In this document: one piece after another, positions 32,648 through 63,344 of the stretch
Position numbering within the stretch: position 1 is the stretch's first letter
How the letters are laid out: every line of letters begins with the position of its first letter
Source of the DNA: Geobacteraceae bacterium GWC2_55_20
GTDB lineage: Bacteria > Desulfobacterota > Desulfuromonadia > Geobacterales > Pseudopelobacteraceae
Reading direction: 5' to 3'
DNA length: 64,000 nucleotides
NCBI GenBank assembly: GCA_001802125.1
Contig: MGZK01000149.1
Coordinates: 1-64,000, forward strand
Position numbers and translations under genes: made by a program
Notes under the pieces: model-generated
What the model saw: only the letters and a program-made list of their open reading frames with translations
Database searches by the model: none
What the model was told of the DNA's origin: nothing

Positions 32648-32679
32648 GGTGATGCTCCTTTCTGGGGTGTACCGGCATT

Positions 32680-32702
32680 GCAACCGGTTGCGCTTTCTGC
32701 GC
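32680..32702 (-). promoter_or_regulatory. Hairpins in the flagellin leader
   Basis: A 12-bp palindrome GCAACCGGTTGC (32680-32691) is adjacent to a GCGC-loop-GCGC hairpin (32690-32702), 33-55 bases before the flagellin ATG. They could be a weak terminator of the upstream gene or a structure in the flagellin leader for FlbT control. No sigma-28 or sigma-54 promoter was found in the 63-base gap. Confidence 0.35.
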
Positions 32703-40967: not shown

Positions 40968-43900
40968 TCATCTTGCAACATGGCTTCCTGACGGAAACCA
41001 ATCAGGATTCCTGCCGGACACAGCCATTAGAAACTTTTCAAGGCCCGCGATACACTGCCGGTCTTGATAAACCCTGTGTTTGCGAACGGACATTTTAGCA
41101 GAAATTTCGTCCCTCCATATCCTCTCGTTAGCCAGCCGCACCGCAATGGCAATATACTCTTCCGTGCTTGCTGCAATCGTTTCCTCAACCCCCATCATCC
41201 TTAGAATCGCATAACCATGCCGGCCTCGCATGAACGCACCTGGCATGGTAACAATCGGTTTGCTAAACGGAAGTGATTCAAATATTGTATTGCAACCCGA
41301 CCATTCGATGCTGTCAAGAAAGATGTCTGCCCGGGCATTGAGCGCCGAGAAACCGGCGCCATCAAGTTGCGGCACCAACAAGACATAATCAGCGAAGTTC
41401 ATTCCCTGGCTTTTAAAAGCCAGTTCAAGCCTCCGGACAAATTTCTCTGTCAGCTCGGAAATATGGTTGGAAATGAATACGAAACGGGCATTTTCAACAC
41501 TTCCGGCTATTGCTGGAAAAACAAAATCATATTTTGGCAAATACTTGAGAAGGTTCTGACAGCAGAGAAACATGACATCATGCGTTTCCAGGCCAGGTAT
41601 TTCAAGTTCCGGAACACCACAAGCACACAGCTCGCCAGGGTCATACCAGATGGATAAATTCGGAAGCGGAACCAGTTTTTCACTGTAGTGCCGCTCTCCA
41701 TCCGCCGGCTCCATCAGGTCACTGCTGATGAAATAGTCCACCGTCGGCATGCCGGTCGTTACCGGATGCCCCCATGATGTGCACTGTACAGGCGCCAGCC
41801 TCAATGCGGCCAATTTGAGCGTGGCGGCATCCATGCCGAGCCCCGGATAGATCAGCACATCAAGGTCCTGTTCATGGATTGCCACCGCGAGCGCTTCCGT
41901 ATCGCTACTCTCAAGGAAGGAATCAGCCAGCGAACGAGCCGATTCAGTCGTCATGTCACTGATTTCACCCGTATGGAAACAGTGAATTGAGAATAACCGC
42001 CGGTCAAGTTGCTCCAACCACCCACGGATTGGAATCTTCCAGTTGGAGTGGTTATGGAAATAATTCGATACGATGCCGATCTTTATTCTGTCGCCTGACG
42101 AGCGTTGTGACAGATGGCGAGATAATTGTGGGTACTTTGCAGCCATGACAGTGCAGATCCAGGAACCGTATTTTACCTGTAAGTCTTTTACGTTGCAGCC
42201 CAAATAGGGAAGGAAGAAAGGAGTCAGAGCTCCGATACCCTCAACGGCATTATTGATACGATCAGCAGAATCAAGTGCGGTATTATTGATAAGCCCATCA
42301 AGCTCTTCAGCGTAGGCGCATATCATGGCATCTGTTTCCGCTTGATTCATACATACCGTGAAGGATGACATACAGCACAACACCCGTGCATATACATGGG
42401 CAGGGTCCAACGCTACAGCACGCAGAAGATACGAGCGGGACTCCTGCCAACGCCCGATCTCCCTGGCGGCATGACCTGCCAGATAGTATCCGAAGGAGAC
42501 ATCAGCGACAATACCAAGAAAATGGCGCGCATGGTGGTAGGATTCTTCATAACGTTTCATTCGCAACAGGACATGCGACAATCTGAGCAGGGATTCCGGG
42601 TTATCGGGATTTTTGGACAAGGCCAGACGCAAGGTGTCGGCAGCAGCATCGAGCATGTTCAGCTTGACCTGCATTGCCCCTTTTTCAACCAGACTTTCAA
42701 CGCAGTCCAGTTTGGCAGGAAAAGTTGCACCCGCCCCGGCAGAACTGCATTTATCCTGCAATGAACCATCCTGTGTGGTTGTTACCGAAGATTGCAGCAG
42801 TTTGGTGAATTCGTTGAGAAGTCCCAGATATATCGCGGGATGGACACAATCTATAAACGGAGCTTTTTGACTACATGCAACGCCCTGATTCACGAGGACA
42901 TGATAGAGATTATGACCTGGTTTTACATAAAGGAATGTATTTTGTCGATAGCAGGGTTCAACCCTGTCATCGTTCCAGAAAGTGGGCCGAAAGAGGTCGA
43001 ACAGTGCATAACCGCGATCAAAAAACAGGTCGGCCCAGAAACTGTGAGGCTTGGTATTAATATGGTTGACTCCCGGTTGCCCTGTAAATGCAGCGCCAAA
43101 CAACACCACATCAGACAGGTTGGACAGCGATTCCACGAACGCATCAGAAGATTCGGGCTGCAGGTGTTCAGCAACCTCCAGGGAAATCGCCAAATCAAAA
43201 CGGCCGGTCAGCGGAAGTTTTTTCTCAAGATTTGCCGGGTAAAACTTGATACTTGAGTCAATCATGGCTTCTTGTGAATTCCAGTCACCATCGACACCAA
43301 CTACCCGTTTAACCCCGAAGTCGCGACAGGTGGCCAACCACGCGCCCCTTCCGCAACCAATATCTACTACGCTTTCCGGAACACCCCAGATTGAGAAGAG
43401 GTGATAAAGATATACCTGGGCCGATTTGAGGCTTCCAAAGACCTGGCTGTTGTAAAATTCTTGCCCATACATGCTGTCGTTCATGTCCGTTTTTCCGGCA
43501 TTGCAGCTAAGATTGAATTTATTATTGTTACAGGTCTGGTCAATAAGGCAGCCTTTATGCCGGAAATCAGGATCGGCAAAATATACCTCTTCGGTACATC
43601 CTCCCAGAAACCAGGCGACCTCGGAGTAAGTTGACATTGCTGTCAGCACAAGATGAGACGCCTTTGAAAGGACCAGTAACTCAACAATATCATCCAACAT
43701 TTCTTCAGGACTGTTTTCATGCCACGGCTTGGAAGGTCTCTGAAGTATTTTCTCCGAAGTAACAAGTTTTTTGTTCAGTGTCCTCAACAGGCTCTCTATG
43801 AACTGAGGATCATCACTGGTTACAAATAGTTCTTTATCCTGAAAACGGGAACAAACCTGGATAAAATCATCAAAATCGAACCACTTCTGTTTCCTCTCTG

Positions 43901-44375
43901 GTTCGTCAAACCAGGTACGTGCATGTACTCCAACATATGAATCCGGCATTTCTTGAATACGCGCATTGACACGATCCATGATTGTCTTACTGAAGCGAAT
44001 CTGCGCGAACTGTTTTCTGAGTATCGCAAGAATCGGTGGGGGAATCTTCAAGAATTCAAAATCAATGGTTTTGGCCTGGCTGTCTCCGGGAAAATCTATC
44101 CCCTTGTAGCCGGTAGAGCAATCGGAAAATCCTGAAGGGAGATAACCCAGAAGATCAATGGGTAACTCAAAACGCCACGTGTTGAGGACAGCAGAATCAC
44201 CCGGAATTTGGTCTGTTTCCCTGAACCTGTCTTGAAATATATCAGAATAACTCAAGCCGCAAAAGTTTTCAGGTGGCCAATAAACCTGATACTCGCTGTC
44301 AAGTAGAGACGCGCTGATCAGACATTTTAATCTGTTAGAAAAACCACTATTGGGATACACGATTAGTTGGCTCAT
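40968..44375 (-). CDS. Triple fusion: fucosyltransferase-like, methyltransferase, TPR/O-GlcNAc-transferase-like
   Basis: The protein has 1135 residues. Residues 1-290 start S-G-F-S-N-R-L-K and contain G-V-H-A-R-T-W-F-D, resembling the NodZ/alpha-1,6-fucosyltransferase fold that uses GDP-sugars. Residues 305-485 are a class I methyltransferase with V-D-I-G-C-G-R-G-A-W and S-L-E-V-A-E-H-L. TPR helices occupy about 560-660. Residues 762-1120 resemble the C-terminal catalytic part of O-GlcNAc transferase/SPINDLY (I-G-I-V-S-N-Y-F-H-N-H, S-W-G-H-P, D-S-I-E-W-S-G-C-N-T). One polypeptide could glycosylate a protein, extend and methylate the sugar. The donor and acceptor are unknown. The frame is continuous with no sign of frameshift. 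Confidence 0.78.
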   Translation of the reverse strand: MSQLIVYPNSGFSNRLKCLISASLLDSEYQVYWPPENFCGLSYSDIFQDRFRETDQIPGDSAVLNTWRFELPIDLLGYLPSGFSDCSTGYKGIDFPGDSQAKTIDFEFLKIPPPILAILRKQFAQIRFSKTIMDRVNARIQEMPDSYVGVHARTWFDEPERKQKWFDFDDFIQVCSRFQDKELFVTSDDPQFIESLLRTLNKKLVTSEKILQRPSKPWHENSPEEMLDDIVELLVLSKASHLVLTAMSTYSEVAWFLGGCTEEVYFADPDFRHKGCLIDQTCNNNKFNLSCNAGKTDMNDSMYGQEFYNSQVFGSLKSAQVYLYHLFSIWGVPESVVDIGCGRGAWLATCRDFGVKRVVGVDGDWNSQEAMIDSSIKFYPANLEKKLPLTGRFDLAISLEVAEHLQPESSDAFVESLSNLSDVVLFGAAFTGQPGVNHINTKPHSFWADLFFDRGYALFDLFRPTFWNDDRVEPCYRQNTFLYVKPGHNLYHVLVNQGVACSQKAPFIDCVHPAIYLGLLNEFTKLLQSSVTTTQDGSLQDKCSSAGAGATFPAKLDCVESLVEKGAMQVKLNMLDAAADTLRLALSKNPDNPESLLRLSHVLLRMKRYEESYHHARHFLGIVADVSFGYYLAGHAAREIGRWQESRSYLLRAVALDPAHVYARVLCCMSSFTVCMNQAETDAMICAYAEELDGLINNTALDSADRINNAVEGIGALTPFFLPYLGCNVKDLQVKYGSWICTVMAAKYPQLSRHLSQRSSGDRIKIGIVSNYFHNHSNWKIPIRGWLEQLDRRLFSIHCFHTGEISDMTTESARSLADSFLESSDTEALAVAIHEQDLDVLIYPGLGMDAATLKLAALRLAPVQCTSWGHPVTTGMPTVDYFISSDLMEPADGERHYSEKLVPLPNLSIWYDPGELCACGVPELEIPGLETHDVMFLCCQNLLKYLPKYDFVFPAIAGSVENARFVFISNHISELTEKFVRRLELAFKSQGMNFADYVLLVPQLDGAGFSALNARADIFLDSIEWSGCNTIFESLPFSKPIVTMPGAFMRGRHGYAILRMMGVEETIAASTEEYIAIAVRLANERIWRDEISAKMSVRKHRVYQDRQCIAGLEKFLMAVSGRNPDWFPSGSHVAR

Positions 44376-49783: not shown

Positions 49784-50556
49784 CAGATGAAGTCTCCGGC
49801 TTCAAGCTTGCGGCAGACAAAGACGGCACTCCAGGATGCAAAACCAAGGGGTTTGCCGGTCAGCCATTCTTCATTCGACAGGAGTTCAAAACCTGAATTG
49901 AGCAACATCTGACGGACCTCCGGCAGAAACAGGTAGCGCATACGGTGTGTTTCCCGGACTTCATGAAGATCCTCGGTACGCTTATCCCTGATGAAGACCA
50001 GATAGTTTACATCCACCAAATTCTCGTTGGGATGCATGACGGGCCGGGCGATGCGGGTCACACTGATATTTTCGTCCTCCAACTCTTTCAAGCGCATGGC
50101 CGGCCGGTCCGTCAAGACACCCGGACCATACCAGCAGTCGAAAATGAACGTCCCGCCAGGCTTCAGATGGTAACAGGCAGACGTAAAAGCCGCCTCCAAA
50201 TCTTCGTTGGTCTGCTGATAGCTCATAACGTGAAATAGTGAGATAACGACATCGAACATTTTCCCTAGCCTGATTGAACGCACATCTCCGTTATGGTAAT
50301 CAAGGGCAGTGTTTGCTCCCGCCGAATCTCGTGCAGCTCTTAGCATCTCCTCCGAAAGATCAACCCCGGTAACAACAAACCCCTGCTCCGCCAAGCAGCG
50401 GTCATGTCGGCCTGATCCGCACCCCAGGTTCAAGACCGTTCGTGCGGCCGGACAGTGCGACTGAATCAACCGGTTGATATAGTTAGACTCTCCGGCATAG
50501 TCCTTGTCGCTATAGAGCAGGTCATAATAGCGGGCATACTCGTTAAACACACTCAT
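49783..50556 (-). CDS. Class I SAM-dependent methyltransferase
   Basis: The protein has 257 residues with V-L-N-L-G-C-G-S-G-R-H-D as motif I, G-V-D-L-S-E-E-M-L at the end of strand 2, and Y-H-N-G-D-V-R. It is a small-molecule or sugar methyltransferase. The ATG at 50556 has AAGGAG eight bases upstream and overlaps the aminotransferase stop by four bases; an in-frame GTG three codons earlier lies on the ribosome-binding site. Confidence 0.88.
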   Translation of the reverse strand: MSVFNEYARYYDLLYSDKDYAGESNYINRLIQSHCPAARTVLNLGCGSGRHDRCLAEQGFVVTGVDLSEEMLRAARDSAGANTALDYHNGDVRSIRLGKMFDVVISLFHVMSYQQTNEDLEAAFTSACYHLKPGGTFIFDCWYGPGVLTDRPAMRLKELEDENISVTRIARPVMHPNENLVDVNYLVFIRDKRTEDLHEVRETHRMRYLFLPEVRQMLLNSGFELLSNEEWLTGKPLGFASWSAVFVCRKLEAGDFI

Positions 50557-51659
50557 GCCAGGCACTCCTTCAGAGCAGTTGCCGTTTCAGCAATCTGTTG
50601 GTCAGTCATTGTCAGCCCGCTGGGAATATAGAGTCCCTGACGGGCCAGATGCTCAGCCACAGGATAGCGTTCTCCACCAAAGAGCCCCATGCGTTGAAAG
50701 ACCGGTTGTTCGTGCATGCCCAAAAAGAACTGCCGTGTTTCTATGCCCAGTTTCCTCAGCCTTTCAGATAATTGCAGCGCTGTAAGGCCGGCTTCGTAAC
50801 TCAATACGATTCCGTAGACCCAGTAGACATTTTGTGCCCATAATGCCTCTGCCGGCAGTTGAATACCGGGAACATCCTTTAAACACTCGCTGTAGACGTT
50901 GGCAATTGCCCGTTTGCGAGCCACAATCTGCTCCATCCGCTCGATCTGGCCAACCCCCAGGGCCGCCTGGAGATTGGTCAGACGGAAATTGTAACCCAGC
51001 TCATCGTGAAGAAAGCGCTGTTTTTTCTGGAAGCAGAGATTGCGCAGGCTACGGGCTCGTTCGGCCATCTCAGTAGTCCGCACTAGAACCATGCCCCCCT
51101 CGCCGGTCGTAACCAGTTTGTTGGCGTAGAAGCTGAACGTACTGATATCACCCAAGCCGCCGCAACGTCTCCCCTTGTATTCTGCGCCATGCACTTCTGC
51201 GGCATCCTCAATGACGGTCAGGTTGTGGCGCCGGGCGATGTCGAGAATCGCGTCCATGTCGGCCGGATGCCCATAGATATGCACAACCAGTATCGCCCGC
51301 GTCCTGGAAGAGATCTTGGCTTCGATCTGATTTACGTCCATCTGCCAGGTGCGTGGCTCCGAGTCAACCAGCACGGGAATACCACCGGCACGCACCACCG
51401 ACTGAGCCGGCGAAATAATGGTAAAGGTCGGCATGATAACTTCATCGCCAGGCTGAAGATCCAACAAACCGACCGCCACATCCAGGGCAGTGGAACCGTT
51501 GCTGACGGCGATACCATGCGGCATCCCGCAGTAGGCGGCCCAGCGCTCCTCGAAAAGATCGAGAAACTTCCCGGCCGAAGATATCCAGCCGGATTTCAAG
51601 GCCTCGTTGACCAGCTCTATGTCACGTTCTGTCACAAGAGGTTCGGCGACCGGTATCAT
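50553..51659 (-). CDS. DegT/DnrJ/EryC1-family sugar aminotransferase
   Basis: The protein has 368 residues. The PLP lysine is K181 in Y-A-N-K-L-V-T-T-G-E-G-G, with E-D-A-A-E-V-H-G at 151-158. The N-terminus I-P-V-A-E-P-L and S-G-W-I-S-S-A-G-K is very close to GDP-perosamine synthases. It transfers an amino group to a 4- or 3-keto sugar nucleotide. The product, probably an amino-deoxy sugar, would be used by the neighbouring glycosyltransferases. No GDP-mannose dehydratase is present in the window, so the pathway is incomplete here. Confidence 0.9.
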   Translation of the reverse strand: MIPVAEPLVTERDIELVNEALKSGWISSAGKFLDLFEERWAAYCGMPHGIAVSNGSTALDVAVGLLDLQPGDEVIMPTFTIISPAQSVVRAGGIPVLVDSEPRTWQMDVNQIEAKISSRTRAILVVHIYGHPADMDAILDIARRHNLTVIEDAAEVHGAEYKGRRCGGLGDISTFSFYANKLVTTGEGGMVLVRTTEMAERARSLRNLCFQKKQRFLHDELGYNFRLTNLQAALGVGQIERMEQIVARKRAIANVYSECLKDVPGIQLPAEALWAQNVYWVYGIVLSYEAGLTALQLSERLRKLGIETRQFFLGMHEQPVFQRMGLFGGERYPVAEHLARQGLYIPSGLTMTDQQIAETATALKECLA

Positions 51660-52075: not shown

Positions 52076-52091
52076 GCGTTGCACCCCATCT

Positions 52092-55000
52092 TCAATTTCT
52101 AGATTGATTGCGCCTGGCGGAGATCAGGGCATCTATATCACTACGATAGCGGTCAATAAAATATTCGTTGCCCATGACATGATCACACGAAAAACAGTGG
52201 CTATTAGGAGCTTCCTTTTTTGTATTGCAGATATTTTTAGCCTGACACCTGAATTCAATCGATTGTGGTTCAGACCATATGTCTAAAATGCTTCGATCGT
52301 TAATATTTCCATACACATAAGCAGAGCGGCAACATGGAACAACACGTCCATCTGCTAAAACCACCATGAAATTATCGACAGTACTGCACGGATTCTTCAT
52401 GTAATAATCACGGGTGGGCTCATCAGTTTCGTTGGATACACTGAGACCATAAAGAACATAAGGTAATATATTCAAGTTGTGGCTTATGTTTGCTTCAGAC
52501 AATATGGCTATAATATCAGATAGTTCCCCCAACAACTGACCGATTTGACCGGTTGACACTCTGTTTTCAGGATTACCTTTGTGAGTCCATTCCGGATAAA
52601 AACTTATTGAACTATCAGGTGGCAAAATTTCTGCGGATAATTCAGCCATCTTATTTATGCTACTAATATTGTGTGCACCAACGACAAAACTCAGGCTAAT
52701 AAAACCGCTGAACTCTGACTTGCTAAAGTGACGTAACATTTCAATAATCGGAGTAAAGTAGTCTTTATGGATGTTGCAAAAAGATTGATGACTAGCTTGA
52801 TTATAGGCATTCAAAGAAATGTTTAGAGTAACCTTCATCTCCCTCAACGCTTTAAGCATATCAATCGTAAGGCCACTACCATTTGTTGTTATATTTGAGA
52901 ACAAACCATTTTTATAAGCAAATTTGACCATGCCCATAAATTGTGGATGGAGTGTAGGCTCACCTTTCCCACAAAAAGAGATAGCCACTGGCACTGGATT
53001 GTTTTTAATATCAGCAATTAGATGTTCATAAACGTTGATATCCATTATTTGTGGCTTGGAGTTTCTATACAAAGAAGCTTCAAGGTTGTTATCATCAGCC
53101 GCTACATTTGGACCATGGATCCAACAAGAAGTGCATTTGAAATTGCACGCATCCGAGATGCTGATTTGGATTGATTTTGGTAGTATTTGATTCGCGTCAG
53201 CATAGTCACGTCGAATCTTCATTACATAGCTTTTTAGCCCCCAAAAATTAATCTTAGTTCCGAACTTCGTAAATATCGGCATTTCAAGTATTTTCAGTAT
53301 ATCTATAGCATCAGGGGCCGTTAGCTTAAGTGACTCCGGCATATGCCCCTCGTCTGGTGGGTGAAAGGATACATAATCAACAGAAAAACGATTAAATCCG
53401 AAATCTATAAAATCTGCAATTTCATGATAATTCATTCTATTTACAACCATAGAAATTCCAAATCTGAAATCCGGTCTAGTTTCTCTCAATGTTTTAAAAA
53501 AAACTAGATTTTCACAGACATTTTCCCAATCGCCTCCCTGTACAAGTTGGTCATAGATGTTTTTTGATGCTGCATTGATAGAAGCATTTAGATTGATAAT
53601 GTGTACTCTAGATAGCAATTTTTTTGTTGAATCCATCAGATACGTCAGATTACTAGTAACACCGAGATTTATTTCTTTATCTATTAATTCTAATATTAGC
53701 TCATCAATCAGCGGATTGTAAAAAGGCTCACCTCCAGCCAAATGAATTTCATTGATATTAGATTTGTTGTTGATTAACATTCGATAGGTTTTGTTATTAA
53801 AATTTTGTTGCGTATGTCTCTTGAACGGCCAACAGAACTTACATTGCACATTGCATAGTCCATGCGAAGAATCGACTATTCTACTTGGGCCTTTTTCAAT
53901 TACTGTATTACGATTTGCTATACATATATTGATATCATTCCTGAATTGAAGATCATCATCAGGAATATTTGTGAAATATTTCATATCATCAGATGCGAAA
54001 ATATTGCAACGGCTCTTATCGCACTCCGAATAATCATTCTGATAAAATTTTCTTCTGCTATCTTGAACTGCTACCGAATTAAAAAGAGTTTCAAGGTTGG
54101 TATCATTTATATTGCCAATTATTTTGCTACTATAACAACAGAATGTACAGTTACCATCGGAATTGATTTCGATTGTAGTAAATGGTTTAAAACATAGTAA
54201 GCGTGGCAAAGATTTCTGAAGATCTAAAGCATTAAGTTTAAGTGTATACAGTTGCAACAAAGCAGGCAGTCCATACTCAAGAGATTGCTTAATTATCGTT
54301 TCATAGTGTTTAGCCAATGCTTCAATACCGGCATTCTGAAACATATCAATAGCATGTTTTTCTACAATATAGACGTAGCCACGTACGTGCCGTTTCATAT
54401 CTTTTGAGATAGTTTCCCCATCATGACAATGGTACACATATAGTGGCTCTGAAACGTATCCAAACTCATGATCTTTGGCAAGCCTGATTATAGTATCCCA
54501 CTCTTGAAATGAAGGGACCAATTCGTCCAACAATTCAATTGACTCAAGTGCACTTTTTTTAACGAGTAAAGAAGGGAATGTTATACTGGGGGAACGGAGT
54601 ATATCTTGATAAATGTTGCCAGATAAAGGTGGTGTCCCAAATAGCACTGGATTTTGATCACCCCTGACAATGTAACATTCACAATGTACAACAGGTACTT
54701 TTTTGCTTAAACCTAATTCGAGCTGTTTTTCTATTTTAAATTCTAAGAATTCATCATCGGAATCAAGAAATGCGATCCATTCACCGGTTGCCTGCCTAAT
54801 ACCCTCATTGCGAGCTGCTTGAGCGCCACTATTTAAAATTCTTTTATATTTAATGTTAGGATATTTTTTTTGAAATTGCAGGACAACCGTCTCAGTATCA
54901 TCAAAGGATCCATCGTCGACAACAATAATTTCATGAATTGGATAGGTCTGGTTAAGGACACTCATAACAGCACGAGGGAGGAGGTTTGCCCGGTTATAGG

Positions 55001-56171
55001 TTGGTATGACAACAGAGACAGACTCCATTTGCGTGGCAAATTGAACAGGCGTATCTATTTTTATTGGCCTGCTGCTCTTGGCATCAACAGTGCTACAGAC
55101 ATTACCTGCAGCCAAAGTATCCAGTTCAGCAATTTCAGGGTAAAAAAACCTGCAGATGCGTGCAACTCTAGCAATCTCGCTCTTTCTAAAATCAAACGTA
55201 TTTGGAAATAATTGCTCATTTGAGAGAATTATTGGGCATTCGGTAATCAGTTGCATAACTTCATTACGCATAAGATCCCCAAAACGGGCTCGGAAACATT
55301 TTCTTACCTCCTCGTAAAGGAGCTCTTTCTCTTTTTCTACAAGCTCTGATTCAGTTATTACCTTAAGGTGTTCATACGCCATCCTAGTCCAAGGTATTAT
55401 GGACTCATAGTTTGGATTTACAAATGAAGCAATCTGACGTTTAGTACATTCTTGAGTGTCCTCATCAGGTCGATTACGTCGGCGAAAGAAAAGTGGTTCA
55501 TCTATTAGTGCAATAGAGCCAAGGAAACAGAGTTTAGCAATCATTACGTGATCAGGTCCAATTGTTGGTTGAGTATGCCAAATAGTCCTAAGGGCAGCAC
55601 TACGGTAAAGGCCATAAACCATGTTCATCCAGCCAAACTCCCAAATATTTTTACAAAATCTCTGGCAGGCATCCAAGCCACGAGTATCAATCACATCCGG
55701 CAGCAACTCTATAGTCTGGTCATTTTCATCTATGTAAATTGAGCGCGGGTAGGCAAGCACAACAGACTCATCCTGTTGGAGTAGTTCGAAAAGTCGGGAG
55801 ATGAAACTTGTGTGATACATATCATGATCAGCCGCTGGCATGATAAAATCACCAGTGCAAAGATCAATAGCTTTATAGCTGTTCCTAACCGGCCCCATAT
55901 TGGTGATATTTCGATAGTATTTTATTCGGCTGTCACGCTCGGCAAACATCCGGCAGATCTCACTTGAGCCGTCTTCTGAGGCATTGTCAGAGATCACCAA
56001 TTCAAAATCTTCATAATCCTGCGCAAGCAGTGATTCAAGAGTTTTTGAAAGAAACCGGGCAGCGTTAAATACTGTCATTGCAATAGATATGAGAGGCCTT
56101 CTAACCGTATTCACAATACGCTCCTGATTATATTTTGTTATATCTGCCTGTATATCTTCAAATTTCTTCAA
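52092..56171 (-). CDS. Four-domain protein: GT2, GT2, radical SAM, radical SAM
   Basis: The protein has 1359 residues. Two GT2 glycosyltransferase domains lie at about 27-250 (S-I-A-M-T-V-F-N, V-I-S-D-N-A-S) and 385-600 (S-V-V-I-P-T-Y-N-R, V-V-D-D-G-S, L-D-S-D-D). A cysteine-rich SPASM-like patch follows at about 665-725. The first radical SAM domain has C-N-V-Q-C-K-F-C at 773-780. The second has C-N-F-K-C-T-S-C at 1009-1016 and ends in a SPASM-like region with C-C-R-S and C-F-S-C. Substrate unknown; glycan or protein-bound sugar modification is inferred. Start is TTG, overlapping the upstream stop (TTGA); no in-frame ATG lies before the first GT2 domain. The DNA is AT-rich. Confidence 0.8.
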   Translation of the reverse strand: MKKFEDIQADITKYNQERIVNTVRRPLISIAMTVFNAARFLSKTLESLLAQDYEDFELVISDNASEDGSSEICRMFAERDSRIKYYRNITNMGPVRNSYKAIDLCTGDFIMPAADHDMYHTSFISRLFELLQQDESVVLAYPRSIYIDENDQTIELLPDVIDTRGLDACQRFCKNIWEFGWMNMVYGLYRSAALRTIWHTQPTIGPDHVMIAKLCFLGSIALIDEPLFFRRRNRPDEDTQECTKRQIASFVNPNYESIIPWTRMAYEHLKVITESELVEKEKELLYEEVRKCFRARFGDLMRNEVMQLITECPIILSNEQLFPNTFDFRKSEIARVARICRFFYPEIAELDTLAAGNVCSTVDAKSSRPIKIDTPVQFATQMESVSVVIPTYNRANLLPRAVMSVLNQTYPIHEIIVVDDGSFDDTETVVLQFQKKYPNIKYKRILNSGAQAARNEGIRQATGEWIAFLDSDDEFLEFKIEKQLELGLSKKVPVVHCECYIVRGDQNPVLFGTPPLSGNIYQDILRSPSITFPSLLVKKSALESIELLDELVPSFQEWDTIIRLAKDHEFGYVSEPLYVYHCHDGETISKDMKRHVRGYVYIVEKHAIDMFQNAGIEALAKHYETIIKQSLEYGLPALLQLYTLKLNALDLQKSLPRLLCFKPFTTIEINSDGNCTFCCYSSKIIGNINDTNLETLFNSVAVQDSRRKFYQNDYSECDKSRCNIFASDDMKYFTNIPDDDLQFRNDINICIANRNTVIEKGPSRIVDSSHGLCNVQCKFCWPFKRHTQQNFNNKTYRMLINNKSNINEIHLAGGEPFYNPLIDELILELIDKEINLGVTSNLTYLMDSTKKLLSRVHIINLNASINAASKNIYDQLVQGGDWENVCENLVFFKTLRETRPDFRFGISMVVNRMNYHEIADFIDFGFNRFSVDYVSFHPPDEGHMPESLKLTAPDAIDILKILEMPIFTKFGTKINFWGLKSYVMKIRRDYADANQILPKSIQISISDACNFKCTSCWIHGPNVAADDNNLEASLYRNSKPQIMDINVYEHLIADIKNNPVPVAISFCGKGEPTLHPQFMGMVKFAYKNGLFSNITTNGSGLTIDMLKALREMKVTLNISLNAYNQASHQSFCNIHKDYFTPIIEMLRHFSKSEFSGFISLSFVVGAHNISSINKMAELSAEILPPDSSISFYPEWTHKGNPENRVSTGQIGQLLGELSDIIAILSEANISHNLNILPYVLYGLSVSNETDEPTRDYYMKNPCSTVDNFMVVLADGRVVPCCRSAYVYGNINDRSILDIWSEPQSIEFRCQAKNICNTKKEAPNSHCFSCDHVMGNEYFIDRYRSDIDALISARRNQSRN

Positions 56172-57451
56172 AAACGCCCAAAGGCTCGCCTTAAAATTGC
56201 TGTACCAAAGTAATCCATCCCGATTTCAGCACATTTTGTACAATATTGTGCATTCAATTTCTTATCTCTAATTTGCTCTAAAGTCATTTCACTAATTTTA
56301 CCCAAGGAGTATAATGGCATTCCACGCTCAACACCACAGCACGGCAGTAATTCACAATGTTCATTAATGACTAGATAATCAAATTGATCACAACGGTAAT
56401 TTGCTGGCCGTTTAACATTCTTGTAGAAATACGTTATCAATTCACTGCTGCACTTTTTTAGAGCATCTCGACTCATCGTATCATCAAAATAACTTCTCAA
56501 CAGGTTATATCCATTCAACGAAGCATGAACAAAAGATATGCCTATCCCTAGTTCACTGGCAAATTTGGCAGCTGCTTCACATTCAAGTATGTTAAATTGA
56601 TACACATGATACGCAATTATAAAACTTCCTCTGTAACCAGATTTTCTCCAAAGCTCAACCATATTAGTAATATTTTGTTTTATTTGTTCAAAATCAAAAC
56701 CGTGAATTCTATTGTATGAATCACAGCTAAATCCTGGCATTGAAAAAGTCACTTGATTCAAATTAGTAAGTACACTTGGTGCCAACTCTTTTAGCACAGA
56801 ACAATTTGTACTGAAACCATAACGAATCCCATTTTCAGTCAATATTGACAAGAGCTTTTCAAAGTGAGGGTGCAAACAAGGTTCTCCCCAATTATAAAGT
56901 TGAACAACCGATTCTCGCCTACTGATTATAGAATTAGTTATTAAATGATTAATTGTAAATTTGAACTCATCTACATCAACAAATTTACGGGCACTTATAT
57001 CCTCTATGTTTCTTCCAATAATGCAATTTATTCCTGTAACACAGTAAGGGCACTTTGCATTACAAACACCTGATACTTCAAAATATACATTTTTGTATGC
57101 ATTAGCATCCTGCTCTCTGCAAAATGAAAGCGCCAGAATCTGATTAAGCTCCTGATCAGTTCTGAAATGGGAATCCAGTATTTGCCAAATACGTGCAAGT
57201 TCCGCTAATGCATCTGAGGTTTCGTGGAGCCATATGGAGTGATCAATCGCTAACAGCGCTTCTTTCGGTCGATTTGTCAGTCGTAAGGCAATGGCACGCA
57301 CATACCAAGCAATATATTGATCGCTGAACCGTTCTAACAGCAGGCAAGATGCCCGTTCAGCATTGTTGAAATCATTTTCATCAAGCATCTCATTAAACAA
57401 ATTAACTAAATCAAGTAGCGTGGTAGTTGAGGAATTTCCTCGATCCTCCAT
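56168..57451 (-). CDS. Radical SAM protein with N-terminal TPR-like region
   Basis: The protein has 427 residues. The first 110 residues are TPR-like helices. The radical SAM motif C-N-A-K-C-P-Y-C lies at 130-137, followed by a second cysteine patch near the C-terminus (C-E-L-L-P-C-C-G and C-T-K-C) suited to an auxiliary SPASM-type cluster. GGGAG lies five bases before the ATG. It overlaps the four-domain gene by four bases and was probably co-evolved with it. Substrate unknown. Confidence 0.82.
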   Translation of the reverse strand: MEDRGNSSTTTLLDLVNLFNEMLDENDFNNAERASCLLLERFSDQYIAWYVRAIALRLTNRPKEALLAIDHSIWLHETSDALAELARIWQILDSHFRTDQELNQILALSFCREQDANAYKNVYFEVSGVCNAKCPYCVTGINCIIGRNIEDISARKFVDVDEFKFTINHLITNSIISRRESVVQLYNWGEPCLHPHFEKLLSILTENGIRYGFSTNCSVLKELAPSVLTNLNQVTFSMPGFSCDSYNRIHGFDFEQIKQNITNMVELWRKSGYRGSFIIAYHVYQFNILECEAAAKFASELGIGISFVHASLNGYNLLRSYFDDTMSRDALKKCSSELITYFYKNVKRPANYRCDQFDYLVINEHCELLPCCGVERGMPLYSLGKISEMTLEQIRDKKLNAQYCTKCAEIGMDYFGTAILRRAFGRF

Positions 57452-57615: not shown

Positions 57616-58521
57616 TCAATGGCCAGTCGCATCTACATACACTTTATCAAAACTAGACAATATGACTTGACAGTTCTTACACTCATCAATTTCGGTTAAC
57701 CTGCCTTGTCTCATCATCTCTCTGTACTCCTGAAACCCCTTCCCGTTATAAATATCTCTCGGGTCGCTATCAAACACATTCCCCATTACTTTCATGTTAC
57801 CACAGCACAAAATCACATCTCCGTTCAGGAACAGCAGCATTCGTTTAAGAAGATCTGGACAGACCTCTTTCTTTTCACGCGACCATTTGTCCAATCTATT
57901 AAATCTGTTAACCCTGTCCTCCTCCACCATTTGCCCCCAGACATCATACGCGGCGACCTGGTCTCCAAATTCAGGCCGCAACTGTTTTTGCCAGAATTCC
58001 CGGTATTCATCCCACTCAGCAAGATTAGATTCCTGCCTGATCATCCTCACTATTATCTTGGTCTTGCCGGTATTGTTTCTCTTTTCTATAAAATCCAACA
58101 CATTTCTCATCACTTGGTTGTAATCAACCATCCTGATTTGCTCGTGTGTATCCTTCTTAATTCCGTCAAGAGAAAAGATGATTGTATCTAAATCTGCAGC
58201 AAGCAATCCTTCCGTCAAGCCAGCATTTAAATGCGTGGCATTTGTCGCAAACCCCACACCTTTGAAACCCTTTTCCTTAGCTACTCTCACTTTATCAACT
58301 ATACCAGGATCTAATAACGTCTCACCCAACCCCTGTAGGCTCAGGTATTTTTGGCTATCTAAATAAGGCACAAACTTATCCAGTATCATCGAGAAATCAT
58401 CCAACGTCAATATACCTTTTCTAGGTGATTCTTTGTAATTACACATAATACAATTGGCCGAACACGCCCCGGCTATAACCTCAATCTGCAAGTATTCGGG
58501 CATTATTTCCGTACTCAACAT
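57616..58521 (-). CDS. Radical SAM/SPASM protein
   Basis: The protein has 301 residues. C-S-A-N-C-I-M-C at 20-27 binds the catalytic 4Fe-4S cluster. G-L-G-E-T and the S-L-D-G-I-K strand are typical of SPASM-family enzymes. The C-terminal C-P-D-L-L, C-C-G-N and C-K-N-C give an auxiliary cluster. No TPR is seen. AGAGGA precedes the ATG. 165 bases of intergenic DNA without features lie before the next gene at 57451. Confidence 0.85.
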   Translation of the reverse strand: MLSTEIMPEYLQIEVIAGACSANCIMCNYKESPRKGILTLDDFSMILDKFVPYLDSQKYLSLQGLGETLLDPGIVDKVRVAKEKGFKGVGFATNATHLNAGLTEGLLAADLDTIIFSLDGIKKDTHEQIRMVDYNQVMRNVLDFIEKRNNTGKTKIIVRMIRQESNLAEWDEYREFWQKQLRPEFGDQVAAYDVWGQMVEEDRVNRFNRLDKWSREKKEVCPDLLKRMLLFLNGDVILCCGNMKVMGNVFDSDPRDIYNGKGFQEYREMMRQGRLTEIDECKNCQVILSSFDKVYVDATGH

Positions 58522-58542
58522 GGCACGATTCCTCTCTTCCAG

Positions 58543-59541
58543 CTACTTGGTTAAAAAACGGTTAAAAATTTCATCCGCATTTCCATCTAAACTGTCTTGT
58601 GGCAACACAACTACATCAGGCAATTTACACTTATTACAGACTGGATATTTTTGTTGAGTATTACGTTCTTTTCTTAACATCATTTTCAGGAACTCAAACG
58701 TTTCGTTACTATGCCAAATATCTTTTAAAGTCGTATTATTTATATTTCCAAATTGCGTAGGATCGTAATAAGAGCAGCACGGAAGGACATCTCCTTCAGC
58801 TGTAATATTCAACATAAAAAAAGGCTGAGGGCAGACAAGAACCGGTGGATGCACTTGACCATACTTAGAAATAGAATAATTGGTATCAGATCTCACATTT
58901 TCATCATCAAATATTGGCCTGATATTTTCAACAAACATCCTATCCGATATGTCCAAGAATGTAGAATAAAACAGCGATTCTTCTTCTTTGCTCAAAGAGA
59001 TATCCGCCACTTTCACGTACACTGCACAATGGCCCTTATTCTGGTTGAGATATCTGATTTTATCAACTAAATCACTAAAGTCCTGTTGAACACCGCAAAC
59101 TTCTTTGTATCTCATTGGAGTTACGCCTTGCAGGGATATCCTTATGGAATCAACACCTGACTCAATCAACGACAAGGTAAAGTCCCGATTGAGCAGTGAG
59201 CCATTGGTTATGACTGAAACCTTTCCCGTAAGATTCAACTGTTTAATGTGCGTTATCATTTTAGGTAAGTCCTTGTTTATCGTCGGCTCACCCCATCCGG
59301 CAAAATTTATCTGCTTTACTTTATCTTCAAATTGCCCAATCTGCTCACATAGTTTTTCAAAAGTGCTCCACTTCATTAGACTATTATTGTTCATATCTGG
59401 AGAAGAATGAATACAGTAATTGCATTTAAAATTACATATTGATGACGGTGTAATTTGGATTGAATAGGGGGTTCGCAAAGGGACAACATTTGCCAATATC
59501 TGTCTATCCTGATCGTAATTTGGTTTGATTTCCGAGGTCAT
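58543..59541 (-). CDS. Radical SAM/SPASM protein
   Basis: The protein has 332 residues. C-N-F-K-C-N-Y-C near 36-43 is the catalytic cluster motif; G-W-G-E-P-T and S-L-Q-G-V-T follow. The C-terminal C-P-Q-P, C-C-S-Y-Y-D-P and C-N-K-C form a SPASM auxiliary site with F-G-N-I-N-N-T-T-L-K-D-I-W as in sugar-cluster homologues. The ATG at 59541 has AAAGGTGG upstream and is chosen over the start at 59571. 21 bases from the neighbouring radical SAM gene. Confidence 0.86.
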   Translation of the reverse strand: MTSEIKPNYDQDRQILANVVPLRTPYSIQITPSSICNFKCNYCIHSSPDMNNNSLMKWSTFEKLCEQIGQFEDKVKQINFAGWGEPTINKDLPKMITHIKQLNLTGKVSVITNGSLLNRDFTLSLIESGVDSIRISLQGVTPMRYKEVCGVQQDFSDLVDKIRYLNQNKGHCAVYVKVADISLSKEEESLFYSTFLDISDRMFVENIRPIFDDENVRSDTNYSISKYGQVHPPVLVCPQPFFMLNITAEGDVLPCCSYYDPTQFGNINNTTLKDIWHSNETFEFLKMMLRKERNTQQKYPVCNKCKLPDVVVLPQDSLDGNADEIFNRFLTK

Positions 59542-59587
59542 GTCGCCACCTTTCATTCTAAAACTCAACAAACTGTAAATCTAACGG

Positions 59588-60400
59588 CTAACGTCTCCTC
59601 AAAAATCCATCTGGAGCACCGGTTATTACAATCTTGTTTTCGATTTGATGGTCAATTTCAAAATTGAGAGTAGTCCCATCTGCGCCGGTCCTGATTCCAG
59701 ACGCCAAACTGCGTAGATACTCCCATACTGCCGTTTTCGGGTTATTCCCCTTACCCCACGGCCTGTCTTTGCTAAAATCAGCCGGCATATCCTCAATACC
59801 AGTATCCCAAACAATGCAGTAACTCCCCCTCGAAGTCAGCGGCGCATACGCCTCTAGTTCTGCCAAGACATGATCATGGGTGTGATTTGAATCTAGGCAG
59901 ACAAGAATCCTGCTATATTCTTTTGCAATCAAGTTAACTCTATCAACGATATCCGAAGCAATAGATGAGCCTTGAATCATTTTGATAAGATGGCGCATGG
60001 GATGAGCTTCAATTGCTGAACGGTTATGGTTCCTGATATCTATGTCTACAGCTAAAACGAGACGTTTTGTTTGAAGCGGATCTATATGTTGACAACTTTC
60101 AACTGCATCACAATAATCAAGCAAGGCCAACATAGAAGCGCTCATCATTAACGAGCCACCATGAGCTATCCCCGTCTCAATAATGAGGTCTGGCTTAACC
60201 TGCCAAATAATTTCCTGAAGAGCGTAAATGTCTTGGGGTATTTGAATATACGGCCGCCCTAGCCAGGAAAAGTTTAATGGGTATTCGTAGCGAACGCCTT
60301 CTCTCAACCAAATATTGGATAATCCTTGAAAATCCTTATCATTTGCCATTTGAGCAATATTATTGCTGATCCGTTTAGCATGTTCATCACACACCGTCAT
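59588..60400 (-). CDS. CmcI-like methyltransferase
   Basis: The protein has 270 residues. I-E-T-G-I-A-H-G-G-S near 75-84 and the following D-I-D-I-R pattern match the CmcI/rhamnosyl O-methyltransferase family, which methylate sugar or small-molecule hydroxyls with SAM and bind magnesium through conserved acidic residues (D-S-N-H-T-H). It may methylate sugar residues made by its neighbours. AGGAG lies before the ATG. Confidence 0.85.
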   Translation of the reverse strand: MTVCDEHAKRISNNIAQMANDKDFQGLSNIWLREGVRYEYPLNFSWLGRPYIQIPQDIYALQEIIWQVKPDLIIETGIAHGGSLMMSASMLALLDYCDAVESCQHIDPLQTKRLVLAVDIDIRNHNRSAIEAHPMRHLIKMIQGSSIASDIVDRVNLIAKEYSRILVCLDSNHTHDHVLAELEAYAPLTSRGSYCIVWDTGIEDMPADFSKDRPWGKGNNPKTAVWEYLRSLASGIRTGADGTTLNFEIDHQIENKIVITGAPDGFLRRR

Positions 60401-60443: not shown

Positions 60444-62054
60444 TTATATCAAACCAAAATGTTGAGCGTATTTTCTCCAACTTTTTTTGCTATCCACTAA
60501 ATTGTTAAACTGTATTTTGTTATATTTAATTGCTTCTTCGTTTACTCCAGAGCATTCAAATGCTTTGGCCAGATAATAGTGAGCAAAGGCGTGGTCTGGA
60601 TATTTTTCGGTTATATTTTGAAAATACCTTGAAGCCTTTTGAAAATTACCGGCTGCCATATTGTAATTTTTTACAAAATTTGCTTCAAGATTCATCAAAT
60701 ATGCTTTTTCTTCCATGTATTCCGGATCAATATCGGGCGTTCTAATATTACATTTCATGGTGACGTATTCACCAAAATCACTATTGACTAAATATTCGTT
60801 CTCTTTGCAAATGTCATAAAGTCTGCTGCCTGCCACCGGAACAGCTAAGTTAAAATAGCACCAGTCAAAGCCATAATCTAATATCAGCGACATTGTTTTG
60901 TCTCTATGTTCTTCTAATTCACCGGGTAGACCAATAACAAAACCAGCATGCACGCTTATATCGTTTGCTCTTAATAGCTTAACAGCGCTTTTTACCATCT
61001 CCAATTTGAGTGGTTTATTAATAATCTGCTTCAGTACAAATTCAGCCCCTGACTCAACCGCAAGAGATATTGTAGTAACCCCTGCTTTTTTCAACAACCA
61101 GCCAATTTCATCATCGAGTGCATACACTGCAATACCATTCGGGAATTCAGTCCTGATGTTAAAATCGACGAGTCGCTGCAATATTTTTTTTGCACGTTCT
61201 CTGTCGGATAAAAAATGATCATCGTCTATTGCCAGCACTTCCAGATTTAGAGCGTTAACCATCTGCTCAACCTCAGCGACTACCTTTTCAACGCTCATAA
61301 ACCGGACTTTTTTCCCGTGCACCGAGCCGCTTGCACAAAAAACACACTTAAACGGGCATCCGCGCGAGGTATGGATACTCAAATTCCGGGCAGTGCTTTT
61401 TCGGGTAGTGTTGTCCGTCTCTCTACCACCATAGTCATTCAAATTAATGAGCGTGTAATCAAAGAATGGTATCTGATCGAGATCTTGCACAAATAAACCT
61501 TCTATCACGTTACCCTCATTTAGGCTGTCTCGCGTCACCCACGCCGGACTAGACTTCAAATATTTGATTCTATTCTCTGAGTCCAATAATTGACAAAGTG
61601 GAATTTCCCCCTCTCCGTAACAAGCAGCATCAATATACGGGATACTGCTCAGAATTTCAGAGTACAAATTAGTGGCCAAGCCGCCTCCAACCACTAAGAT
61701 TGCATCTCGTCTCACCTTTTTAATTGTTTCAGAAATGTGATGTAAATAGGGATAGCTGGTATTAAATAGTGCCGATATACCGACCACATCCGGTTGGAAT
61801 TGGATTGTTTCATCGGCAATATACTTGTTTATTTCTAACTCCAAATCATCCGTATTTTTGCAGAGTTGATACGCTTTTACATTGAGATCAATGATTTTAA
61901 CCTGAACCTCATGCTTTGCATGCGCCTTTACGAATGCTGCCAACGAAAGAACTCCGTAGGGAACCGTAAAAATCGGCGTTCTCGATTTGAGTTCTCCAGT
62001 GAGATGACTCTTAATGTCAAAGAATGGCGTTATAATAAACAACACTTTAATCAT
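60444..62054 (-). CDS. B12-binding-type radical SAM protein with C-terminal TPR
   Basis: The protein has 536 residues. The N-terminal Rossmann region (about 1-150) with G-I-S-A-L-F-N-T-S-Y-P-Y and G-G-G-L-A-T corresponds to the cobalamin-binding domain of this family, although the classical base-off histidine motif is not evident. The radical SAM motif C-P-F-K-C-V-F-C is at about 233-240 with G-L-P-G-E-L-E-E-H. The final 60 residues are a TPR unit (F-A-H-Y-Y-L-A-K-A-F). Members methylate unactivated carbons or perform rearrangements. GAGG precedes the ATG. Confidence 0.83.
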   Translation of the reverse strand: MIKVLFIITPFFDIKSHLTGELKSRTPIFTVPYGVLSLAAFVKAHAKHEVQVKIIDLNVKAYQLCKNTDDLELEINKYIADETIQFQPDVVGISALFNTSYPYLHHISETIKKVRRDAILVVGGGLATNLYSEILSSIPYIDAACYGEGEIPLCQLLDSENRIKYLKSSPAWVTRDSLNEGNVIEGLFVQDLDQIPFFDYTLINLNDYGGRETDNTTRKSTARNLSIHTSRGCPFKCVFCASGSVHGKKVRFMSVEKVVAEVEQMVNALNLEVLAIDDDHFLSDRERAKKILQRLVDFNIRTEFPNGIAVYALDDEIGWLLKKAGVTTISLAVESGAEFVLKQIINKPLKLEMVKSAVKLLRANDISVHAGFVIGLPGELEEHRDKTMSLILDYGFDWCYFNLAVPVAGSRLYDICKENEYLVNSDFGEYVTMKCNIRTPDIDPEYMEEKAYLMNLEANFVKNYNMAAGNFQKASRYFQNITEKYPDHAFAHYYLAKAFECSGVNEEAIKYNKIQFNNLVDSKKSWRKYAQHFGLI

Positions 62055-62135: not shown

Positions 62136-63344
62136 CTATGTAGCGCCAATGTATCTTTCCTTAGGAATTGCATACATCACAGAACCAGTGTCGCTCCAGC
62201 TATGCTGCCTCATATAAAACACGTAATCTGTCAGAGTGTTCATTAGTAGATCTGGTATTTGCCAGATACCAAGGCGATTATGATATAACGTTGCCACGAT
62301 TATTGGTCTGCTATTCCTAATGGTATTTATGCCTCCTTTAAGAGCATTATATTCTTCACCCTCTAAATGCATTTTAATAAAGGTGGGTTCAATAACCATT
62401 AACTCATCGATCGTAATAACTCCGGCGTTCGTCTGGCCTAAAGCAGAGAGCTGTGATGCGTAACCAAGCCCGTGGAAAAAGGTCTTATTACAAGGCAAAT
62501 CGCCTACTGCGCACGAAAGAATATGGATTTTTCGGCTTTCAATACCAACCAATCTTGATTTCAACTTCTCCTGTAAACAATGCATATTATACAAATCAGG
62601 CTCAACAAGCCAGATAGCAGCAAACTGCGTATCAACCAGTTCCAGGAATCTGCCAGTCGTGTCGCCGTGATGAGCGCCCAAATCGACAAAAACCTCATTG
62701 TGATGCAAGACTGAAACTACCTGAGGAATAAAGTACCTGTCGGTTGTTGTTACCGGTGCGCCCTCAAAAAACCACTCTTCGCGGAGATACTGCCATGCGA
62801 TAAACTGCAGATGATGTGCACGAGAAGTATCATCACTCCATTTAGCAAGCACTGCGTCGACACCATCGATCTCTTCGGCACCAAATGGACCGGAAAACCA
62901 TCCATTGCCGAGAGGGTGGAGATCGCGATACGCCTCCGTTATGTCATAGAATGGCACAAAATCTAACCATCCATCGGAGTGCAGAAAAGATTGTAACGTC
63001 GTAAAGGGAACGGTGGCGACACAAACGGCAAGTAATATATTCTGTTTATGCTCAAGCGAAACATGCTGCGGATTGATAATAGCTGTATCGTTCCAAAATA
63101 AGTCATCTTTATACTGTTCTGCACTTGCATCGACTACAAAGACAACAGGTATACCGATTGCTTGAAAATACTCCTTTGCCATTCTGCCAAGCTTTCCGGC
63201 ACCATACAGAGCAAGAGGTTTATTAGCGATCCGGGGCGAATAGACCGGTTTTTTCGTGCAGAGAGCATGTAGCAATGCTATGGCGGTATTTACATCAGGA
63301 GCTTGTTTAAATTTTACCGCCATGATTTCAGCATGTTTGCCCAT
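62136..63344 (-). CDS. FkbM-family methyltransferase with N-terminal nucleotide-binding-like domain
   Basis: The protein has 402 residues. Residues 40-150 look like a Rossmann-type domain (A-L-Y-G-A-G-K-L-G-R). The C-terminal half has V-F-V-D-L-G-A-H-H-G-D and, in place of the usual K-I-D-V-E-G-x-E, K-M-H-L-E-G-E-E. It could methylate a sugar. The annotated ATG overlaps the preceding gene by 31 bases; an internal ATG at 63323 would reduce this. No clear ribosome-binding site decides it. Confidence 0.75.
   Translation of the reverse strand: MGKHAEIMAVKFKQAPDVNTAIALLHALCTKKPVYSPRIANKPLALYGAGKLGRMAKEYFQAIGIPVVFVVDASAEQYKDDLFWNDTAIINPQHVSLEHKQNILLAVCVATVPFTTLQSFLHSDGWLDFVPFYDITEAYRDLHPLGNGWFSGPFGAEEIDGVDAVLAKWSDDTSRAHHLQFIAWQYLREEWFFEGAPVTTTDRYFIPQVVSVLHHNEVFVDLGAHHGDTTGRFLELVDTQFAAIWLVEPDLYNMHCLQEKLKSRLVGIESRKIHILSCAVGDLPCNKTFFHGLGYASQLSALGQTNAGVITIDELMVIEPTFIKMHLEGEEYNALKGGINTIRNSRPIIVATLYHNRLGIWQIPDLLMNTLTDYVFYMRQHSWSDTGSVMYAIPKERYIGAT

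Follow-up and report, generated by a model that had tools for sequence, protein, structure and literature searches.

A single open reading frame of Geobacteraceae bacterium GWC2_55_20 joins two GT2 glycosyltransferase (GT) domains with two radical SAM modules and, judged from its sequence and surroundings, appears on balance to encode a multifunctional enzyme of a flagellin glycosylation island whose radical SAM modules would tailor the glycan. The stretch analysed, positions 1–64,000 of contig MGZK01000149.1, is referred to as the window. Because one frame combines glycosyl transfer with radical chemistry, the initial annotation had suggested that a glycan is modified by radical steps (epimerisation, dehydration, dehydrogenation or C–C bond formation) on the same protein; this view is supported in part, as the combination recurs in other genomes, in other domain orders and near flagellin in all eight loci, which argues for glycan tailoring. 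Flagellin as the target of tailoring had not been named in that annotation and is suggested here.

Gene structure and domain architecture

The frame at 52092–56171 on the minus strand counts 1359 codons from TTG 56171, contains no internal stop over approximately 4 kb and displays no obvious break in positional GC at the module seams. GTG 56114, the sole in-frame start preceded by AGGAG (six bases upstream, 56125–56121), is probably the start of the gene, with a predicted protein of 1340 aa. An overlap with the radical SAM gene upstream (stop 56168), as proposed initially, depends on the TTG start; since no in-frame start other than GTG 56114 is preceded by a strong ribosome-binding site, this overlap is doubtful and probably nonexistent, with a gap of 53 bases instead.

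Pfam confirmed the presence of two GT and two radical SAM domains in one frame by two matches each to PF00535 (1.7e-60), Radical_SAM (7e-28) and SPASM (2.4e-19). The domain order of the initial annotation has to be corrected to GT2 – GT2 – N-terminal twitch plus radical SAM – radical SAM plus C-terminal twitch/SPASM, with an auxiliary-cluster twitch before the first and a twitch/SPASM after the second radical SAM core. Assignment to GT2 follows from a PF00535 score of 204 bits versus a gathering score of 23.3 and from acidic DxD-type motifs, with ADHD at aa 114 and GPDH at aa 205 in the first and DSDD at aa 470 and EWD at aa 557 in the second domain, motifs which we take to be catalytic. As stated initially, CxxxCxxC is intact in both radical SAM cores (aa 773–780 and 1009–1016); the conservation of its cluster cysteines, on which the earlier reading had been made to depend, extends to 17/17 aligned relatives of module 1 and 10/10 of module 2. 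Together with GGEP at aa 813 and GKGEP at aa 1068, these motifs indicate that both modules are putative members of the radical SAM superfamily, while four twitch cysteines per module, the set for one auxiliary cluster, and two PF13186 stretches equally point to SPASM/twitch proteins, the cysteines of the C-terminal twitch/SPASM being kept in 9–10 of 10 rows (alignment A4).

The best PDB match of the module 1 profile, with a bare lead over MoaA and viperin, is the twitch radical SAM aminocyclitol dehydrogenase BtrN (4m7t, 9.5e-17). Core and twitch both align, but in swapped order: in BtrN, a stand-alone protein, the twitch is C-terminal and follows the core, whereas in module 1 of the fusion it is N-terminal and precedes the core. 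The AlphaFold model of module 1 (pLDDT 76) matches generic radical SAM barrels such as NifB, PFL-activating enzyme, viperin and SuiB, which give no hint on the substrate, and the absence of BtrN among the 50 structural matches listed speaks neither for nor against a relationship; the model of module 2 has a pLDDT of 60. NF033640 (N_Twi_rSAM) shares the order of N-twitch and radical SAM over aa 659–936, but describes proteins without fused GTs and is matched with 118.5 bits versus a curated cut-off of 170. For module 2, the best match, TIGR04317 (tungsten-maturase), was rejected at 108.7 of 380 bits. As neither radical SAM module comes close to any of the curated NCBIfam cut-offs listed, their assignment by NCBIfam was rejected altogether and no substrate can be assigned. 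Equally, a phage origin was rejected, with PHROGs matches limited to GtrB-like GTs and generic radical SAM proteins.

Genomic neighbourhood

The glycan genes run in the same direction as the flagellin–FlbT–FlaF operon, which ends the block (Table 1). GT and sugar genes adjoin flagellin in the window, an arrangement that is consistent with a putative flagellin glycosylation island. A WbuC-like cupin is also encoded near the fusion gene. The FkbM, B12-radical SAM and radical SAM/SPASM genes and GT module 1 are common to the window and the locus of a second fusion, G041, which differs by possessing a B12-radical SAM module instead.

Table 1. Features of the fusion gene and its neighbourhood in the window
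Feature	Position	Strand	Basis
GT2-GT2-radical SAM-radical SAM fusion gene	52092..56114	-	open frame; AGGAG before GTG 56114; initially annotated to TTG 56171
GT2 domain 1 (aa 25-328), DHD + GPDH motifs	55188..56099	-	PF00535; 36% identical to N-terminal GT of G041 fusion
GT2 domain 2 (aa 382-614), DSDD + EWD motifs	54330..55028	-	PF00535 best stretch 386-501; WcaA model 382-614
N-terminal twitch (aa 660-722): C660, C678/679, C717, C722	54006..54194	-	second SPASM stretch; NF033640 from aa 659; alignment A1
Radical SAM core 1 (aa 765-936), CNVQCKFC 773-780, GGEP 813-816	53364..53879	-	Pfam/NCBIfam; barrel matches of AlphaFold model (pLDDT 76) to radical SAM proteins
Radical SAM core 2 (aa 1003-1177), CNFKCTSC 1009-1016, GKGEP	52641..53165	-	PF04055 best stretch
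C-terminal twitch/SPASM (aa 1262-1330): C1262, C1280, C1326, C1329	52182..52388	-	PF13186 1262-1330
Upstream radical SAM gene	56168..57451	-	PF04055
Radical SAM/SPASM gene	57616..58521	-	Pfam
Radical SAM/SPASM gene	58543..59571	-	Pfam; 33% identical to gene at G041 locus
Rhamnosyl O-methyltransferase/CmcI-like gene	59588..60400	-	PF04989 7.3e-86
B12-binding radical SAM gene	60444..62054	-	47% identical to G041 counterpart
FkbM-type methyltransferase	62136..63344	-	46% identical to G041 counterpart
DegT/LegC-like sugar aminotransferase	50553..51659	-	Pfam/NCBIfam
Methyltransferase-TPR-GT41 protein (O-GlcNAc/N-glucosyl-transferase-like)	40968..44375	-	
2228-aa TPR/GT9-like protein, between glycan genes and flagellin	32711..39397	-	
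Flagellin	31829..32683	-	PF00669 above threshold; 209.7 bits with NCBIfam flagellin model, short of its 614-bit cut-off
FlbT	30709..31107	-	PF07378 1.5e-43
FlaF	30348..30749	-	PF07309 1.1e-33

Recurrence of fusions and distance to flagellin

A search of 147 relatives with the whole protein retrieved the window itself and GT-only similarities, with no full-length relative. All six GT frames of at least 1000 aa among these matches were examined, two of which (G041 and G102) carry radical SAM, and the 500–700-aa frames were examined in part. No relative was found in the genome and viral contigs searched; seven plasmid and two phage records matched, none with a coverage of 80%. Pattern scans reached close relatives only. 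A fusion confined to this assembly and split by frameshift elsewhere had been named as a reason for doubt: the exact domain order was indeed found in this assembly alone in the searches made, but copies split by a frameshift were not observed, and G041, G102, G354, G265, G427, G407 and G614 possess equivalent fusions of 1377 to 3699 aa with other domain orders. Fusion partners were also recovered as separate neighbouring genes, in G052 and two Nitrospirae MAGs. L086, L088 and L091, which agree in contig and frame lengths with G407, G265 and G427, are the named records of these genomes and were counted once, while L087 (a 4.5-kb contig with FkbM-GT4-TPR followed by the beginning of a radical SAM module of twitch type) and L090 (a 3.5-kb contig with radical SAM, methyltransferases and TPR, and no GT match) were left out because of the lack of flanking DNA. 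As the fusions have no common domain order, each may do something different.

Flagellin (PF00669) is encoded less than 20 kb from the fusion in 8/8 loci with usable contig context, at a distance of 19 kb in the window, 7 kb in G041 and G265, 7–8 kb in G407, 2 kb in G354, 0.5 kb in G427, 7.5–8.5 kb in G614 and 11 kb in G102. Multiplied over the eight loci, the probability of such proximity upon random placement is approximately 4e-14 under an optimistic null, with the loci not all independent as G407 and G614 belong to one genus. PF00669 also matches FlgL-like proteins; a profile from the flagellins of the window and G427 equally matches a nearby protein in G041, G265, G407, G354, G614 and G052, while flagellin in G102 was called by PF00669 alone. 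Lone radical SAM relatives in seven flagellin-bearing genomes (G146, G221 (twice), G227, G337, G419, G215 and G181) were on the same stretch as flagellin in 0/8 places. In an even sample of the phylum, 10 of 48 flagellin neighbourhoods contained any radical SAM ORF and none a GT-radical SAM fusion, which suggests that the type is rare; this zero is approximate, as the home-made HMMs cover only GT2 among the GT families and many stretches end at contig ends.

Proposed function and alternative explanations

Each GT would extend the flagellin glycan by a sugar, either on flagellin or on a donor, whereupon the radical SAM modules would abstract hydrogen from carbons of the added sugar and change it. 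The glycan may be modified while bound to the same protein. For module 1, a two-electron oxidation in the manner of BtrN, at an alcohol or amine carbon, would be the most likely reaction, with epimerisation as the alternative.

The same chemistry might instead serve a cell-surface polysaccharide such as LPS, capsule or exopolysaccharide, flagellin proximity merely reflecting shared genomic real estate. The GT2 domains match the LPS/EPS-type models WcaA, EpsD and TuaG, all below cut-off, and the cupin and the sugar aminotransferase are close by; we consider this unlikely, however, as flagellin is near all eight fusions, with G041 and G102 on chromosome-size contigs, the glycan genes run co-directionally into flagellin–FlbT–FlaF and a polymerase or flippase was not noticed among the families scanned. 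There is equally a minor chance that the substrates of the radical SAM modules are nucleotide sugars or free precursors, with fusion providing co-expression only and no substrate shared with the fused GTs. DesII is a sugar-acting radical SAM enzyme with a free or nucleotide-bound sugar as substrate. BtrN, too, acts on free or nucleotide-bound sugars (PMC9012708), and unfused versions occur in G052 and the two Nitrospirae MAGs; on the other hand, mutants have led to the proposal that a GT-tailoring fusion of a flagellin island acts on the sugar it has added itself (PMC5207246). Modification of the flagellin polypeptide by epimerisation, cross-linking or a C-glycosidic bond seems improbable: although many SPASM enzymes are reported to have peptide substrates (PMC9012708) and the TPR and GT41-like proteins of the island hint at recognition of a protein, the profile finds its best PDB match in an enzyme of carbohydrate type and no peptide-maturase model reached its cut-off. 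Artificial joining of neighbouring genes during assembly or annotation, to which the exact order in this one 186-contig draft genome might hint, is hardly credible with an uninterrupted 4-kb frame that begins with its one strong start site and with seven other such fusions in other assemblies.

If tailoring of a flagellin glycan is correct, radical chemistry would permit sugar changes at unactivated carbons, beyond the scope of ordinary methyl- or acetyltransferases, and selectable motility combined with measurable flagellin mass would provide a readout for those radical SAM enzymes whose substrate is unknown. The recurring fusions allow a prediction of the GT and the radical step that share a sugar and so make the substrate question directly testable. 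The findings suggest that some bacteria rebuild flagellar sugars by free-radical chemistry. More tentatively, and rather as a speculation, some bacteria of the phylum might build flagellin glycans on modular megaproteins, with GT, TPR, methyltransferase and radical SAM (twitch and B12-type) modules shuffled between lineages into a combinatorial assembly line for the radical-based rewriting of sugar carbon skeletons.

Comparison with known systems

Links of flagellin glycosylation with flagellar biosynthesis, motility and immune evasion have been described (PMC4875605). Among titles and abstract beginnings, in which few subscription journals were covered, no GT-radical SAM fusion of this kind was described. 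TPR/multi-GT megaproteins near flagellin (G096, G107, G128 and G085) equally combine several GT modules in one frame, but are devoid of a radical SAM module. In enterobacterial flagellin islands, GTs are fused to a tailoring domain, with methyltransferase domains in many GT41 proteins and also in GT2 proteins, whereas the word 'radical' does not occur in the text of that report (PMC4875605). A close resemblance in organization is offered by the GT2 CDR20291_0242 of Clostridioides difficile R20291, which differs in performing ordinary SAM-dependent methyl transfer without iron-sulphur clusters. Nevertheless, this PF00535 protein with a methyltransferase domain, encoded downstream of fliC, which we count as a likeness to the window fusion, is reported to add and to methylate flagellin rhamnose (PMC5207246); the fusion described here would, in a similar way, keep sugar transfer and tailoring together.

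Integrity and domain architecture of the fusion protein

The fusion frame is real and intact; it is read from the minus strand of the window, a part of contig C149 of a draft genome of 4.55 Mb in 186 contigs. The two CxxxCxxC motifs, which the initial annotation had placed at residues 773-780 and 1009-1016, are located there, and their cluster cysteines are invariant in all 17 rows of an alignment of relatives of module 1, the first radical SAM module, and in all 10 rows of a corresponding alignment for module 2. The same alignments retain the auxiliary cysteines C660 (17/17), C678 (15/17), C717 (16/17) and C722 (17/17) of module 1 as well as C1262 and C1280 (both 10/10) and C1326 and C1329 (both 9/10) of module 2, with C722 as a ligand being alignment-dependent, since its column was matched in just 1 of 11 rows in an alignment of other relatives. 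When tested against the curated radical SAM families closest to them, the modules did not qualify as members.

The overlap with the upstream radical SAM gene, as initially described, is probably not real. The TTG at 56171, which overlaps the stop codon of that gene, lacks a convincing ribosome-binding site, while the GTG at 56114 (aa 20), with AGGAG six bases before it, is the sole in-frame start in the ORF with a strong site upon scanning for AGGAG, GGAGG, GAGGT and AAGGAG. As the first GT domain starts around aa 25, this start costs no domain sequence. The same scan detected no other strong internal start in the ORF, which argues that the four modules are synthesised as one chain.

Features of the window locus and of GT-radical SAM fusions in other genomes
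Feature	Position or length	Domains or remarks	Distance to flagellin (kb)
Window fusion	52092-56171 (-)	GT2-GT2-radical SAM-radical SAM	19.4
GT2 domain 1	aa 25-~330	Pfam + NCBIfam	
GT2 domain 2	aa 382-~614	Pfam + NCBIfam	
Twitch-type cysteine domain	aa 660-722	Pfam + NCBIfam; runs into radical SAM 1	
Radical SAM 1	aa 765-936	Pfam + NCBIfam	
Radical SAM 2	aa 1003-1177	Pfam + NCBIfam	
Twitch/SPASM domain	aa 1262-1330	Pfam + NCBIfam; after radical SAM 2	
Methyltransferase-TPR-GT41 protein	40968-44375 (-)	resembles O-GlcNAc or N-glucosyl transferases	
TPR/GT9 protein, 2228 aa	32711-39397 (-)	repeated GT9-like segments; adjoins flagellin	
FlbT and FlaF	30348-31107 (-)	accompany flagellin	
Second TPR/GT9 protein, 507 aa	28754-30277 (+)		
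Decaheme cytochromes	20017-21888		
Split transketolase-like subunits	L045:13545-15313 and 15310-16383	beside GHMP kinase; same contig, upstream	
G041 island protein	L042:11036-13216	726 aa, no Pfam match	
G041 fusion	1377 aa	GT2-B12/radical SAM-GT2-GT2	6.6
G102 fusion	3264 aa	methyltransferase-GT2-radical SAM/SPASM-GT2-GT2 with TPR	11.2
G354 fusion	2270 aa	GT-methyltransferase-radical SAM-GT2s-TPR	2.4
G265 fusion	3616 aa	GT56-like, B12-binding x2, radical SAM x3, GT4, WbsX, TPR, GT2	6.6
G427 fusion	3699 aa	GT2, GT4, WbsX, TPR, radical SAM x2, methyltransferase	0.5
G407 fusion	3268 aa	phosphodiesterase, GT2, TPR, radical SAM x2 with SPASM, methyltransferase	7-8
G614 fusion	1544 aa	FkbM, GT4, TPR, radical SAM/SPASM	7.5-8.5

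Recurrence of fusions and unfused partners

The exact GT2-GT2-radical SAM-radical SAM order was found neither in 146 other genomes of relatives nor, searching via the radical SAM pair, in 394 other genomes of the phylum, and scans of GTDB and viral contigs with the whole protein gave no match. Among radical SAM matches, inspection of frames of at least 700 aa gave four from the phylum search (genomes G265, G407, G354 and G427) and one from a further search (G614), all five with GT modules according to Pfam. Among GT matches in relatives, six frames of at least 1000 aa were inspected; radical SAM domains are present in G041 and G102, and the other four (G096, G107, G128, G085) are GT-only. The fusion is thus one of several GT-radical SAM megaproteins that are loosely related to each other and encoded at flagellin-linked loci; searches of an open-licence library found no published description of such fusions. 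A contig binned as Omnitrophota (L087) carries a module with 98% identity to that of G407, pointing to mis-binning or recent transfer.

The closest counterpart of the locus is that of G041, a member of the same family, with 46% identity for FkbM, 47% for the B12-radical SAM protein, 33% for one radical SAM/SPASM gene and 34-36% between the first GT modules of the two fusions. After this first GT the G041 fusion has a B12-type radical SAM module, whereas in the window fusion another GT and then a pair of twitch enzymes follow, so that the same position holds a GT-radical SAM fusion of different chemistry. The syntenic G041 island also encodes a protein without any Pfam match. The fusion partners do occur as separate neighbouring genes elsewhere: in G052, of the same family, the gene for the B12-radical SAM relative (36%) lies 12.5 kb away from flagellin and is surrounded by individual radical SAM, SPASM and GT2 genes. 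Two Nitrospirae MAGs (L089, L092) have a pair of GT genes next to a module-1-like radical SAM gene, all unfused but overlapping.

Linkage to flagellin

Flagellin was searched as PF00669 match in the genomes concerned and distances were worked out from the loci. All eight fusion loci lie less than 20 kb from a match, as do, within ~12 kb, all four GT-only megaproteins. Random placement gives a product of ~4e-14 with at most two flagellin clusters per genome, a null too generous because glycan genes cluster and G407 and G614 represent one genus; assuming four glycan loci per genome and seven independent cases, the value would still be ~6e-5. Stand-alone radical SAM relatives were near flagellin in none of eight places in seven flagellin-bearing genomes (G146, G221 with two, G227, G337, G419, G215, G181), although location on another contig of a draft assembly is not proof of distance; G175 and G411 are without flagellin. 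In reverse, 48 flagellin neighbourhoods from an even phylum sample, ~20 kb each side where the contig allowed, contained a radical SAM ORF in 10 cases and a GT2 ORF in 15; none had a GT2-radical SAM fusion. The GT-radical SAM fusion is rare, yet flagellin-associated where present.

The surrounding gene island

The main genes from 63 kb to 31.8 kb of the window all run in one direction, in the order FkbM-type methyltransferase, B12-binding radical SAM, rhamnosyl O-methyltransferase/CmcI-like, two radical SAM/SPASM genes, another radical SAM gene, the fusion, WbuC-like cupin, DegT aminotransferase, methyltransferases, GTs, the methyltransferase-TPR-GT41 protein, the 2228-aa TPR/GT9 protein, flagellin, FlbT and FlaF. 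The FlbT/FlaF pair is known mainly from alphaproteobacteria; the genome that carries it here also encodes decaheme cytochromes. The GT41 protein is possibly the starter enzyme of the flagellin glycan. GC content is 37-43% at 52-64 kb versus mostly 49-57% to the left (42-44% at 44-50 kb); the AT-rich 52000-64000 block coincides with the radical SAM cluster, and its low GC fits import, horizontal acquisition being probable. More radical SAM genes lie upstream on this contig, as do the halves of a split transketolase beside a GHMP kinase, the latter combination suggesting an unusual sugar precursor.

Probable function and comparison with known systems

A profile of 17 N-twitch relatives retrieved BtrN, which oxidises an aminocyclitol (PMC9012708), as best of 177,635 PDB sequences (9.5e-17). 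Profile twitch (7-85) aligns with BtrN 180-260 and profile core (113-234) with BtrN 17-141, thus twitch and core are swapped in order. BtrN is the one lead to the reaction, and a weak one, since the E-values of MoaA and viperin are close behind. For module 1, AlphaFold predicts a radical SAM barrel (pLDDT 76) with no telling structural neighbour; its model of module 2 is poor. B12-type modules of the sister fusions would suggest C-methylation. For the window fusion, the domains and motifs, the recurrence of such fusions and the linkage to flagellin are shown; a glycan would be the substrate and flagellin the carrier, with tailoring presumably coupled to transfer, and the type of radical reaction is likewise inferred.

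A tailoring domain of their own on flagellin GTs is established for methylation: GT2 of Clostridioides difficile attaches rhamnoses and also methylates them (PMC5207246), and enterobacterial GT41s possess methyltransferase domains (PMC4875605). In the window fusion, radical SAM modules occupy the place of this methyltransferase domain.
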